This document shows, one piece after another, positions 53,968 through 57,631 of a stretch of 64,000 bases of DNA. Position 1 is the first letter of the stretch. The number at the start of each line of letters is the position of its first letter. The notes under the pieces are model-generated. The model saw only the letters and a program-made list of their open reading frames with translations. It was not told the origin of the DNA and searched no databases. This DNA comes from an uncultured Anaerolineae bacterium (lineage in GTDB: Bacteria; Chloroflexota; Anaerolineae; Anaerolineales; Villigracilaceae), in contig CAIQVH010000036.1 of assembly GCA_903875215.1 (NCBI GenBank), forward strand, positions 62,001 to 126,000, given 5' to 3'. The position numbers and the translations under genes were made by a program.

Positions 53968-55215
53968 TTACTCGTACAAATATTTCTGCCTGGCCCCCTT
54001 GGCCACTTCTTCACGCAACAGCAGGCCCAGACGGGTGATGCCTTCGCGGATGGCGTCGGGGCTGCAATAGGAGAAGTTCAGGCGCATGGTGTTTTTCCCG
54101 CCACCGTTGGGGTGGAAAGCCGCGCCGGGAACAAAGGCCACTTTTTTATCAATGGCGGTTTTAAACAATTCGGTGGCATCCATCCAATCGGGCAAAATGC
54201 CCCACAGGAACATACCGCCCTGCGGCCGGGTCCAGCGCACTTCGGAGGGAAAGATCTCATCCATGGTTTCGAGCATCGCGTCGCGGCGTTCTTTGTAAGT
54301 GGCACGGATGACCTTGACATGCTCATCCAAAAAGCCACCCTTGCCGACCTCGTACGCAACAATCTGGTTGAAAGTGGCGGTATGCAGATCGGCGGCCTGC
54401 TTGGTCATCACGATTTTGCGCGTCACCTGCTCGGGGGCGATCACCCAGGCCAGGCGCAGACCGGGCGAAAGCAGCTTGGAGAAGGTGCTCAGGTAGATCA
54501 CGTTGCCGGTGTAGGTGCCGTTATCCTGGCGATACTGGCTGTCGAGCAGCGCTACTGAGGGCAGGTGCTCCCCCTCGAAGCGCAACTGACCATACGGGTC
54601 GTCTTCGATGATCGGTACTCCGTAACGGTCGGCCAGTTCCACCAGTTTGAGGCGCCGTTCCAGGGTCAGCGTGGAACCGCTTGGGTTCTGGAAATTGGGC
54701 AGGATGTAGATGAATTTGGGGCCGATGCGCAGCGCCTTTTCCAGCTCATCCACGATCATCCCATTTTCGTCGGAAGGCACGGAGATATACTGCGCTCCAT
54801 AGGCGTTCCAGGCTTGCAGCGCGCCCAAGTAGGTCGGCGATTCGACCACGATGTAATCTCCGCGGTTCAAGAACAGGCGGCCCATAAAATCGAGTGCCTG
54901 CTGAGAGCCGGAAGTGATGCAGATATTCCCGGCCTCGACCTGGATGCCGTACCGCCGGGTGTGGCGGGCGATCATTTCTCGCAAAGGGGTGTAGCCTTCG
55001 GTGGTGCCGTATTGCAGTGCCTGCGCGCCCAGGGTGTCTAGGACGATGTTGCAGGCTTCTTTAAATTCTTTGACCGGAAAGACCTCGGGCGCGGGCAGGC
55101 CGCCGCCAAACGAGATGATGTCGGGCTGCTCGGTCAACTTCAGCAGCTCGCGGATCACCGAACTTCCCATCTTTTGCATGCGGTGGGCGTATCGGTATTC
55201 CCAGGGTGTTTGCAT
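53968..55215 (-). CDS. PLP-dependent aminotransferase (ARO8/LysN-like)
   Basis: Fold-type I aminotransferase of 415 residues. The PLP Lys is in STFSKLLSPGLRLAW near residue 246. ILPNFQNPSGSTLT, EDDPYGQLRFEG and the N-terminal ISFGGGLPAPEVFP are hallmarks of the 2-aminoadipate/aromatic (ARO8, LysN) group. It has no MocR DNA-binding domain. Start ATG 55215 behind AAGGAG. Its leader contains a terminator and a Cys-rich uORF, so expression may be attenuated. The amino acid used is not predictable. Confidence 0.92.
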   Translation of the reverse strand: MQTPWEYRYAHRMQKMGSSVIRELLKLTEQPDIISFGGGLPAPEVFPVKEFKEACNIVLDTLGAQALQYGTTEGYTPLREMIARHTRRYGIQVEAGNICITSGSQQALDFMGRLFLNRGDYIVVESPTYLGALQAWNAYGAQYISVPSDENGMIVDELEKALRIGPKFIYILPNFQNPSGSTLTLERRLKLVELADRYGVPIIEDDPYGQLRFEGEHLPSVALLDSQYRQDNGTYTGNVIYLSTFSKLLSPGLRLAWVIAPEQVTRKIVMTKQAADLHTATFNQIVAYEVGKGGFLDEHVKVIRATYKERRDAMLETMDEIFPSEVRWTRPQGGMFLWGILPDWMDATELFKTAIDKKVAFVPGAAFHPNGGGKNTMRLNFSYCSPDAIREGITRLGLLLREEVAKGARQKYLYE

Positions 55216-55612: not shown

Positions 55613-55658
55613 AAGAAACGCCGCCGTCCCGAGCTTCAGGGGCGGCGACGTTTCTTTT
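55613..55658. terminator. Hairpin after trpB2
   Basis: AAGAAACG and CGTTTCTT arms with an inner GCCGCC/GGCGGC-like pairing, interrupted by small mismatches, stand about 14 bases beyond the trpB2 stop. Short T-rich runs on both sides suggest a moderate terminator of the T-box operon. Confidence 0.6.
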
Positions 55659-55671
55659 AAGGGTGGTCAGC

Positions 55672-57045
55672 TCAGGCCGGGAAGGAAACCTGCGGCAGGT
55701 GCTGCATGGCTTCCTGCACTGCGGCGGCAGGATATTCGTAATCTTCCAGTTCGCCCTGCAGGTATTTTTCGTAGGAGGTCATGTCGAAATGACCATGCCC
55801 GGAGAGGTTGAAGACGATCACACGCTTTTCGCCTTTGGCCTTGGCATCCAGCGCCTCGTCAATGGCGGCGCGGATGGCGTGCGAGCTTTCGGGGGCCGGG
55901 ATGATGCCTTCGGCTTTGGTGAATTGCACGGCAGCTTCGAAGGTGGCGCGCTGTTTTACGGCAACGGCTTCGATCAATCCGGCATCATACAGCGAGGAGA
56001 TCAGCGGTGACATGCCGTGATAGCGCAGCCCGCCAGCGTGGATGCCAGGCGGCATGAAGGTGTGGCCGAGCGTGTGCATCTTGACGACAGGCGCCATCTG
56101 GGCGGTGTCGCCGTAATCGAAGGTGTAGACGCCTTTGGTTAGCGAGGGCGTGGCGGTCGGTTCGACGGCCAGCAGGCGGGTGCGTTTGCCGTTTTTGAGA
56201 TTTTCGCGCAGGAAGGGGAAGGCGATGCCTCCAAAGTTTGAGCCGCCGCCGACACACCCGATGACGACATCCGGGTATTCTCCAGCCATATCCATCTGTT
56301 TGAGGGCTTCTTCGCCAATGACGGTCTGGTGCAGCAGGACATGATTGAGGACCGAGCCAAGGCTGTATTTTTTCTGCCCGCCGGAGGTGGCGGCCACTTC
56401 GACGGCCTCGGAAATGGCGATGCCGAGTGAGCCGGTGTTGTTGGGGTCTTGGGCAAGCAACGAACGTCCGTAATGCGTGCGATCGGTGGGGCTGGCGAAA
56501 ACCTGGGCGCCGTAGGTTTCCATGAAGATGCGGCGGTAGGGTTTCTGGTTGTATGAGACTTTGACCATGTACACTTCCAGGTCAATATCGAAGAAGTTGC
56601 AGGCCATGGCGAGCGAGGTGCCCCACTGGCCGGCGCCGGTTTCGGTCGTCAGGGCTTTGGTGCCGGCGGCTTTATTGTAGAAAGCCTGGGCGACGGCAGT
56701 GTTGGGTTTGTGGCTGCCGACAGGTGAGGCGCCTTCGTACTTGAAATAGATGTGCGCGGGGGTGCCGAGCGCTTTTTCGAGCCGTACGGCGCGAATCAGC
56801 GGGGTGGGCCGCCAAAGTTTGTAGATTTCGCGCACTTCTGCGGGGATAGGGATGAATCGTTCGGTGCTGATTTCTTGTAAGATCAGTTCCATGGGGAACA
56901 GAACCGAGAGGAAATCTGGGGTGACGGGTTCGAGGGTGCCGGGGTGCAGCACTGGCGAGGGGGCGACGGGGTTGTCGCCGTTTACGTTGTACCAGTATTT
57001 CGGGATGTCGTTTTCGGACAGGTTGAAGTGGGTTTGGTCAGACAT
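55672..57045 (-). CDS. TrpB2-type tryptophan synthase beta-like enzyme
   Basis: PLP-dependent beta-replacement enzyme, 457 residues, matching the TrpB2 (TrpB-like) branch rather than the trpA-linked TrpB1, which is about 400. The N-terminal region has [12 protein letters not shown], the PLP Lys is in [25 protein letters not shown] follows, and the PLP-phosphate loop is [10 protein letters not shown]. No trpA is adjacent. Its position in a Trp T-box operon behind a 55-residue unknown protein supports tryptophan synthesis from indole or a closely related reaction. Strong start ATG 57045 behind AAGGAG. Confidence 0.94.
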
Positions 57046-57069: not shown

Positions 57070-57237
57070 TTAGGGAACAAAGCTGGGGCCGGGGACTTGC
57101 CCGGGGAAAGGGGTGTCAGCGAGGCGTTGGGCGTAAACCTGTTCTGCGGTCAGCACGGAAATCGGCTGGCTGGCGGCTGCTTCGCGTTCTTGAGCGGGAA
57201 GTTCTTGAGTGCGTTCATCCTGTGCTGGCGATTGCAT
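57070..57237 (-). CDS. 55-residue unknown protein, first gene of the Trp T-box operon
   Basis: ATG 57237 is preceded by AGGAG with seven bases of spacing, and 55 codons follow. The N-terminal half is rich in Gln, Glu and Ala (ERTQELPAQEREAAASQ) and probably disordered or helical. The end is Pro-rich (TPFPGQVPGPSFVP). No helix spans the membrane. It lies between the T-box terminator and trpB2. Possible roles are a TrpB2 partner, a small regulator or a translational entry gene. I recognise no family. Confidence 0.62.
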   Translation of the reverse strand: MQSPAQDERTQELPAQEREAAASQPISVLTAEQVYAQRLADTPFPGQVPGPSFVP

Positions 57238-57259
57238 GTGTTTCTCCTGGTTGTGGTTT

Positions 57260-57592
57260 AAAAAAAAGCGCGTTCGTCCCAATGACGGGACGAACGCGAA
57301 GTCCGTGGTGCCACCCGAAGTAGACTGCCTGGAAATAAAAATCCCCGCGATGTTGCGGGGAAAGAAAGCCAGCCTCACTCGTTCCGGGTACGCTCTGGTG
57401 GAGAGTTATACCCTGGCCCTGTAACGGGGGCCTGCCGGCTCAGACTACTGGGTTGGGCGGGGGCTCAACCGTTTATCCTGCAACTCCGAGGTCCATTTTG
57501 CGCTGTCGTGCGGGCAGGACTCACACCAAAAATTGCCTGCTCTCTGAACCGCCGTGCGGCGCATACTCGTCCTCTTCGACGTTATTGTTTTA
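57260..57592 (-). promoter_or_regulatory. Tryptophan T-box riboswitch with terminator
   Basis: Minus-strand leader. The T-box core reads GGGTGGCACCACGG (57316-57303). Stem I has GAGG (57574-57571) facing CCTC, an AGTA loop-E element, and AAATGGACC on the right side, giving the specifier TGG (Trp) at 57495-57493, followed by the GGAGTTGC-like element. The TGGC in the T-box pairs with the acceptor end of a tRNA whose discriminator is G, as in tRNA-Trp. The terminator CGCGTTCGTCC/GGGACGAACGCG with eight T (57298-57260) competes with the antiterminator. Low charged tRNA-Trp should switch transcription on. Confidence 0.9.
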
Positions 57593-57603
57593 TTGTGAGC
57601 GTG

Positions 57604-57631
57604 ATTATAGCCGTGCCGGGGTTTCTGTCAA
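57604..57631 (-). promoter_or_regulatory. Consensus promoter of the T-box operon
   Basis: On the minus strand TTGACA (57631-57626), 16 bases, TATAAT (57609-57604). Both hexamers are perfect. Transcription would begin near 57597 and produce the whole T-box leader. Confidence 0.85.

Follow-up and report, generated by a model that had tools for sequence, protein, structure and literature searches.

A tryptophan T-box operon of an uncultured Anaerolineae bacterium with a conserved small protein upstream of trpB2 and, in its relatives, a candidate arrest peptide

In Bacillus subtilis, a small protein expressed from a tryptophan T-box, anti-TRAP (RtpA), inactivates TRAP. Within the Chloroflexi, a T-box upstream of a trpB-like gene is already in print: Wels et al. 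(2008, PMC2494555) describe T-boxes related to trpE and to a trpB-like gene in two Dehalococcoides genomes, and a word search of the main text of that article finds no small ORF, leader peptide or rtpA. In the arrest peptide TnaC, as presented in PMC8429421, the residues Trp12, Asp16, Ile19 and Pro24 are critical; Trp12 and Asp16, together with Ile15, line the L-Trp site, whereas Ile19 is a hinge at which only medium-sized hydrophobic residues are allowed and the carbonyl of which is bonded to His22. In the arrested state, according to the same source, RF2 binds the UGA codon but its catalytic loop is unable to settle. Other arrest peptides have been described in other bacteria, among them CliM (PMC13183943) and CruR (PMC9426467).

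The locus analyzed here lies on the minus strand of a 64,000-nucleotide stretch (hereafter, the window) from the genome of an uncultured Anaerolineae bacterium. The regulator and the class of the target gene are the same as those reported for Dehalococcoides (PMC2494555); the locus differs from that account in having a small protein (A) and, in its relatives, also a micro-ORF (B) between the T-box and trpB2. Two elements look new: a conserved small-protein family tied to the trpB2 T-box and, in leaders of the same set, a candidate arrest peptide. In the open-access literature on TrpB2, small proteins, and leader or arrest peptides, no description of A or B was found among the matches listed, and nothing was found that joins Anaerolineae, T-box and tryptophan, or all three of T-box, Chloroflexi and trpB2; given the open-access scope of this search, A and B are not proven to be unpublished.

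The T-box leader, trpB2 and the tryptophan genes

The leader starts behind a sigma-70-type promoter (57604-57631), in which TTGACA (57631-57626) and TATAAT (57609-57604) are separated by 16 nt, so that the perfect promoter reported in the preliminary description, made from the sequence alone, is borne out. A covariance search (Infernal) identifies a tryptophan T-box leader at 57283-57588: the match to RF00230 runs from 57588 to 57283 with 80.8 bits (E 7.4e-18), spans the full length of the model (positions 1-219), and aligns both the AGUA element and the antiterminator element. This score falls short of the RF00230 gathering score of 93 bits, as do those of all 7 T-box matches in this genome, and the shortfall is therefore attributed to the model, which has its limits in this lineage, and is not read as disproof. 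Of the six other T-boxes in the genome, four are followed by genes identified by eye as thrS, pheS, leuS and ileS. The genome also encodes a tRNA-Sec.

Sequence and covariance alignment place a TGG (Trp) specifier codon at 57493-57495 and the T-box core, GGGTGGCACCACG, at 57304-57316. The specifier motif, A(N)TGGNCC, recurs in 108 of the 115 leaders of the comparative set that have a T-box core. The T-loop, UGGC at 57313-57310, is complementary to G73-CCA, and the tRNA-Trp(CCA) of this genome reads ...CTGGCCT-G, that is, its discriminator is G73. With the TGG specifier, the UGGC T-loop and a tRNA-Trp carrying G73, both tRNA contacts fit, in agreement with the pairing to the discriminator that had been proposed from the leader sequence. 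The antiterminator competes with an intrinsic terminator (57260-57298), which consists of a 13-pair hairpin in the predicted fold followed by T8 and ends at 57260. The leader as a whole (57255-57595) folds at -128.1 kcal/mol (z -2.9 against 100 shuffles). Thus, the T-box with a TGG specifier, an AGTA element and a terminator, as described earlier, is recovered by the covariance model, albeit below its gathering score; judging from its sequence, the leader very likely senses uncharged tRNA-Trp as a T-box and presumably switches in response.

The second gene of the operon, trpB2 (55672-57045), encodes a standalone TrpB-like protein of 457 aa that passes the curated cut-offs of both NF009057 (722.7 bits, cut-off 366) and TIGR01415 (622.2 bits, cut-off 518.85). 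An inverted repeat directly 3' of trpB2 (55614-55656) probably marks the end of the two-gene operon. Past this repeat, at 53968-55215 on the same strand, lies a gene for a PLP aminotransferase, the best curated matches of which, below the cut-off, are to the aminotransferase part of MocR-type regulators. The one further TrpB-like match in the genome, on contig C19, was rejected as a second trpB because it is a threonine synthase.

The absence of trpA near this locus, noted in the preliminary description, extends to the whole genome (98.64% complete, 2.48% contaminated): searches for trpA (TIGR00262) and for IGPS/trpC (PF00218) yield no match, and both searches are positive in 14 of 14 control genomes. 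The bacterium seems unable to make tryptophan from scratch and, given that neither gene is matched, TrpB2 is likely to salvage indole. In that case, the locus would provide a defined genetic setting in which the standalone TrpB2 serves indole salvage, with neither trpA nor trpC in the genome. Across the family, trpA is matched in 36 of the 81 genomes with trpB2 and not in the other 45, so that TrpB2 is not confined to genomes without trpA.

GTDB contigs supplied 80 trpB2 loci for the comparative set, and the other loci came from 152 family genomes. The removal of 26 near-duplicates and of 5 entries with less than 120 nt of upstream DNA from the 164 rows leaves 133 upstream regions; in 3 of these, the trpB2 start lies beyond the contig edge, and the TrpB2 tree was built on the other 130 rows. 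Since the rows are related, the counts should not be taken as independent events. Of the 133 loci, 115 have a T-box core: 49 contain the T-box only, 34 the T-box and A, 20 the T-box, A and B, and 12 the T-box and B; one locus has B only and 17 have none of the three. On the TrpB2 tree, a quick reconstruction with 54 weak branches out of 127 inner ones, the minimum number of changes is 16 for A and 11 for B.

The small protein A

ORF A (57070-57237), which is read from 57237 to 57070 behind an AGGAGAA-type ribosome-binding site, encodes a protein of 55 aa that contains no Trp and ends in F-V-P-stop. A-like ORFs of 46-70 aa are located 3' of the T-box terminator in 54 of the 133 loci and share the succession of [LM]QE, LPA-x-QV-x-x-EQ (a stretch predicted to form a helix) and AP-x-F-[I/V]-P-stop. 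The Q and the E of the QE motif are each conserved in 50 of the 54 sequences. At the C-terminus, the final P is invariant (54/54), the F is present in 50 sequences (Y in 3, L in 1) and F-[V/I/L]-P-stop is found in 50, counts that are affected by the choice of the set on the basis of this very end; when the last 9 columns are removed, the model recovers the same 54 loci, but it was built from them. Three loci with ORFs in the place of A that end in LAF[I/V] or LALV without Pro (L040, L051 and L068) were excluded from the count.

Outside the three motifs, divergence is strong. The pooled pN/pS of the family is 0.30 over 78 pairs with at least 55% identity, a value based on uncorrected proportions in pairs that are not independent. 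The proteins have an acidic character, with a net charge of -5.7 on average (from -10 to 4), and are nearly devoid of Trp (2 of the 2979 residues in 54 sequences), as would suit a protein made under Trp shortage. The presence of A is not tied to the absence of trpA; if anything, the opposite trend is observed (Fisher p 0.056). Searches of Pfam and NCBIfam with 51 members of the family (A1) return nothing consistent, only scattered single-member matches with E values of at least 0.008, and nothing in the PDB matches A by sequence or by fold. The AlphaFold2 model (mean pLDDT 69.8, pTM 0.36) contains a single helix, residues 31-41, and is too weak to be read for anything but this helix; A is mostly disordered. 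By its conservation and selection, A appears as a real protein family without database relatives, and the 55-residue protein that the preliminary description placed under the same control as trpB2 is borne out as a genuine conserved gene (54 of the 133 loci, pN/pS 0.30).

The micro-ORF B in relatives

In relatives, a second, far shorter ORF, B, typically M-x(2-4)-[I/V]-x-F-H-P-P-UGA-AGG, is located directly 5' of trpB2, behind A, trpS or the T-box alike; the window itself has no B. The search pattern, [F/L]-[H/R/Q]-P-P-stop, with the identity of the stop codon and position -5 left free, finds B in 33 of the 133 regions, including 20 of the 54 A loci, compared with none in the reverse complements, none in the reversed sequences, one in the complemented sequences and a mean of 0.19 (maximum 1) in 100 dinucleotide-block shuffles. 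One more locus, L133, with the B-like end F-F-P-P-UGA, was kept out of the 33. The trpB2 leader of a named cultured strain, Pelolinea submarina (L048), also has an end of the B type, behind an uncertain start codon. A purine-rich ribosome-binding sequence, by a generous pattern, precedes a possible start of B in 32 of the 33 loci and, counted from the nearest start, B comprises 8-10 codons in 25 of them and 4-21 codons in the others.

In the codons for F, P, P and stop, positions 1 and 2 are invariant or almost so and the third positions vary, which is a clear coding signal. The codon choice itself is strongly skewed: the first Pro is CCR in 32 of the 33 loci, the second Pro is CCY in 31, the stop is UGA in all 33 and the next triplet is AGG in 25. 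Over the first 100 codons of trpB2, Pro is encoded by CCG 809 times, by CCC 494, by CCT 180 and by CCA 173. The tail has I (20), V (5), L (3), F (2) or another residue (3) at position -5, F (30) or L (3) at the F position, and H (27), R (4) or Q (2) at position -2. A, unlike B, uses mixed stop codons (TAA 30, TAG 14, TGA 10) and has CCR as its last Pro codon in 43 of the 54 sequences, so that the two ORFs are objects of different kinds.

A stricter version of the B pattern matches 18 of 400 genomes of the order, compared with one match in the backward control. Twelve of these matches are located before trpB2, 2 run into the start of trpB2 where the contig ends and the remaining 4 look like chance; all 14 matches at trpB2 lie behind a T-box core. 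A looser pattern, applied to 396 genomes of the class, matches 27 genomes against 11 backward-control matches, and only two of the matching loci, L089 and L090, are at trpB2; the others look like chance.

The end of B is similar to that of TnaC of E. coli K-12, I19-V20-D21-H22-R23-P24-UGA, where P24 is encoded by CCT. The two ends have in common Pro at position 0 (Pro24 in TnaC), His at position -2 (His22) and, further in, a hydrophobic residue at position -5 (Ile19), together with a CCY last codon and the stop UGA. In B, position -5 is I, V, L or F in 30 of the 33 loci, position -2, which the pattern restricted to H, R or Q, is H in 27, and the end is Pro-UGA in all 33, the P being prescribed by the pattern and the stop not. 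Trp12 and Asp16 of TnaC have no counterpart: 25 of the 33 peptides have only 8-10 residues and so do not extend to these positions. To judge from the alignment of the two ends, B keeps the part of TnaC near the peptidyl-transferase centre without the part that forms the Trp pocket. The downstream genes also differ, the one after TnaC degrading Trp and the one after B, trpB2, making it. This likeness, noticed after the fact and comprising three positions, a codon and a stop, is a lead and not a claim of membership. From CliM (PMC13183943) and CruR (PMC9426467), as described there, B differs in sequence, in the greater length of those proteins and in their signals, YidC activity and copper, respectively.

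With these features, B is a candidate arrest or slow-termination peptide for trpB2, a role for which the odds appear somewhat favorable. If B indeed stalls ribosomes, the C-terminal I-x-x-H-x-P-UGA core of TnaC can exist without the tryptophan-binding part, and the needs of a minimal stop-codon arrest peptide would become directly testable. Several other explanations for the output of B were considered and rejected. Sequestration of the trpB2 ribosome-binding site is not general: the mean probability that the site is unpaired is 0.30 compared with 0.31 for shuffled spacers in 29 B loci (the count omits 4 of the 33, namely, L035, with no recognized site, and L136, L148 and L183, with spacers longer than 130 nt), and sequestration is strong only in L022, L023 and L028. 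A Rho/rut-like C-rich spacer after B is not B-specific (p 0.77 against A-only loci and 0.08 against T-box-only loci), the excess of C over G being 0.126 in B loci (n = 33), 0.113 in A-only loci (n = 14) and 0.076 in T-box-only loci (n = 33). Both results are negative as general explanations, which counts against a simple attenuator model. Decoding of the UGA of B as selenocysteine, considered in view of the tRNA-Sec in the genome, was discarded upon inspection because B and trpB2 do not keep a constant frame relative to each other.

Readings of the operon and the distribution of A

The reading that we prefer is a Trp-responsive T-box operon for indole salvage in which A likely acts in trans and, in many relatives, B probably stalls the ribosome; we assign a probability of about 0.5 to this proposal as a whole. 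It is based on computed features, namely, the T-box, the specifier, the tRNA match, the gene content and, for A and B, their conservation and the selection acting on them, from which we infer the switching, indole salvage, the translation and trans role of A, and the stalling by B. Pairing of uncharged tRNA-Trp to both the TGG specifier and the T-loop (UGGC) would let the antiterminator form, and A and trpB2 would be transcribed. TrpB2 would then make Trp from indole and serine, and A, translated and Trp-poor, would accumulate during Trp starvation and act in trans on TrpB2 or on Trp charging, using the helix together with the F-[I/V]-P end at its C-terminus. Stalling of the terminating ribosome by B at P-P-UGA would, in many relatives, add a translational layer before trpB2.

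For A itself, the role of an optional trans-acting, starvation-induced accessory or regulatory peptide is at best an even bet; since Pfam, NCBIfam and the PDB contain no consistent relative of A, conservation is what this role is drawn from. If A does act in trans, a bacterial family that lacks TRAP would have in it a small-protein reporter of uncharged tRNA-Trp. A hidden Markov model of A, built from 51 of the 54 sequences, matches 58 of the 152 family genomes at E <= 1.1e-5, with E values down to 7e-19, although the matched genomes include the sources of the model. In 54 of these 58 genomes, trpB2 follows A within approximately 510 nt on the same contig, and in two more, G298 and G461, the contig ends near the trpB2 start, 3' of A. 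The remaining two have no trpB2 match: G504, a genome that is 66% complete, has an intact A behind a T-box, which is neutral to mildly favorable with respect to a trans role, whereas in G474, A is interrupted, which ties A to the operon.

Alternatively, A could be a cis-acting leader without a trans function, such that a pause of the ribosome at F-[V/I]-P-stop sets the translation or coupling of the next gene. This possibility, unlikely but deserving serious consideration, accommodates the invariant final P and the F-[V/I/L]-P end next to a diverging interior, with the reservation that A was chosen by its end, as well as the interruption of A in the trpB2-less G474 and the presence of another Pro-stop ORF, B, in 20 of the 54 A loci. 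Moreover, in 18 of the 34 loci with A but without B, the A stop is separated from the trpB2 start by 15-33 nt, so that a stop-bound ribosome would touch the trpB2 ribosome-binding site. The use of three stop codons and of CCR for the last Pro, so unlike B, speaks against such a leader, and a QE motif located approximately 30-45 residues from the end, together with a variable distance between the helix and the end, is a poor fit to a peptide shaped to the exit tunnel. Furthermore, in locus L237 (genome G461), an intact trpS intervenes, the order being T-box, A, trpS, B, trpB2, and a degraded trpS remnant follows A in L151; hence A belongs to the T-box-proximal first position and not to the immediate neighborhood of trpB2. 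Together, the two loci suggest that T-box-A-trpS-B-trpB2 could be the ancestral order.

A rather doubtful extension is that the relatives stack two tryptophan sensors, with A as a third element. The T-box would read tRNA-Trp charging at the level of transcription, and B, 8-10 residues long and TnaC-like, would gate trpB2 by reading free Trp or indole in the tunnel; A, in the window as well, would either stall at F-[I/V]-P-stop or signal Trp starvation in trans. B would then be among the shortest metabolite-sensing arrest peptides, with the I/H/P core of TnaC but no Trp site.

The preliminary description had considered a small partner of the standalone TrpB2. Homologues of A do occur upstream of trpB2 in 54 of the 133 loci, and A is co-regulated with trpB2; of the 58 genomes in which A is matched, trpB2 is present in 56, two of these with a contig break near its start. 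Nevertheless, A is missing by the model from 25 of the 81 trpB2 genomes, a set defined by matches with at least 76% identity, partial ones included. Seven of the 25 have less than 300 nt upstream on the contig and one, G511, has a weak A match (E 0.015), so that 17 absences stand with the region in view. Ten genomes with only 60-70% identical trpB2 matches were left out; none has A at E <= 1.1e-5, and counting them as well, A is missing from 35 of 91. Absence of A where the T-box and trpB2 are kept, which the preliminary description named as a refuting observation, is thus seen in part of the genomes, including the closest relative, L003 (genome G397), with a TrpB2 89% identical to that of the window, a T-box and no A match; A is, therefore, not an obligatory subunit. 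With at least 16 changes of A on the TrpB2 tree, many of whose forks are weak, and strong divergence outside the three motifs, an obligatory structural subunit is improbable; the partnership is not supported as originally stated, whereas A as an optional partner of TrpB2 is possible.

The T-box-trpB2 interval of L003 contains an ORF that reads into the trpB2 start and includes a stretch, LSAERLLSKR, resembling the helix of A, but lacks both the QE motif and an F-[V/I]-P end; by its sequence, this ORF is perhaps a decaying A.

A role like that of anti-TRAP would follow the same logic, as both RtpA and A are short proteins expressed first from a Trp T-box. However, A comes from a family without TRAP and has hardly any cysteines: TRAP (PF02081) is found in 0 of the 152 family genomes, with a positive B. 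subtilis control, which refutes a role against TRAP itself, and the 12 Cys among the 2979 residues of 54 sequences leave no zinc-binding pattern, making this reading highly improbable. A chance origin of both ORFs, A and B, in the interval from the T-box terminator to trpB2, as their shortness and the lack of both in 66 of the 133 loci might suggest, is barely credible given the selection on A and the E values of its model (its sources being among those genomes), the 33 B loci where 0.19 are expected, and the 14 of 18 strict matches that fall at trpB2, all behind a T-box core.

Where trpS lies between the T-box and trpB2, the encoded TrpS has a C-terminal extension ending in G[A/I/T]FC in L022, L045, L057, L179 and L307; L081 ends in PLAI, L049 ends in LALV (GLALV) and not in F[I/V]P, and L033 and L060 show neither kind of end. 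The contig of L307 stops inside the trpB2 start, and its end sequence, agatcggaagagc, is presumably a sequencing adapter. Finally, between another T-box and a gene read by eye as leuS, locus L203 (G000:C18:73888-74016) contains a 43-aa Arg-rich ORF, MKKVIRNIRNAMQNIRAALGRLLQPRPALRPVPVHSRRVYRRR, and similar ORFs are found in 5 other genomes of the family (E <= 2.2e-7), each with a T-box core 5' and the same gene 3'; conserved T-box-proximal micro-proteins may be a wider theme.
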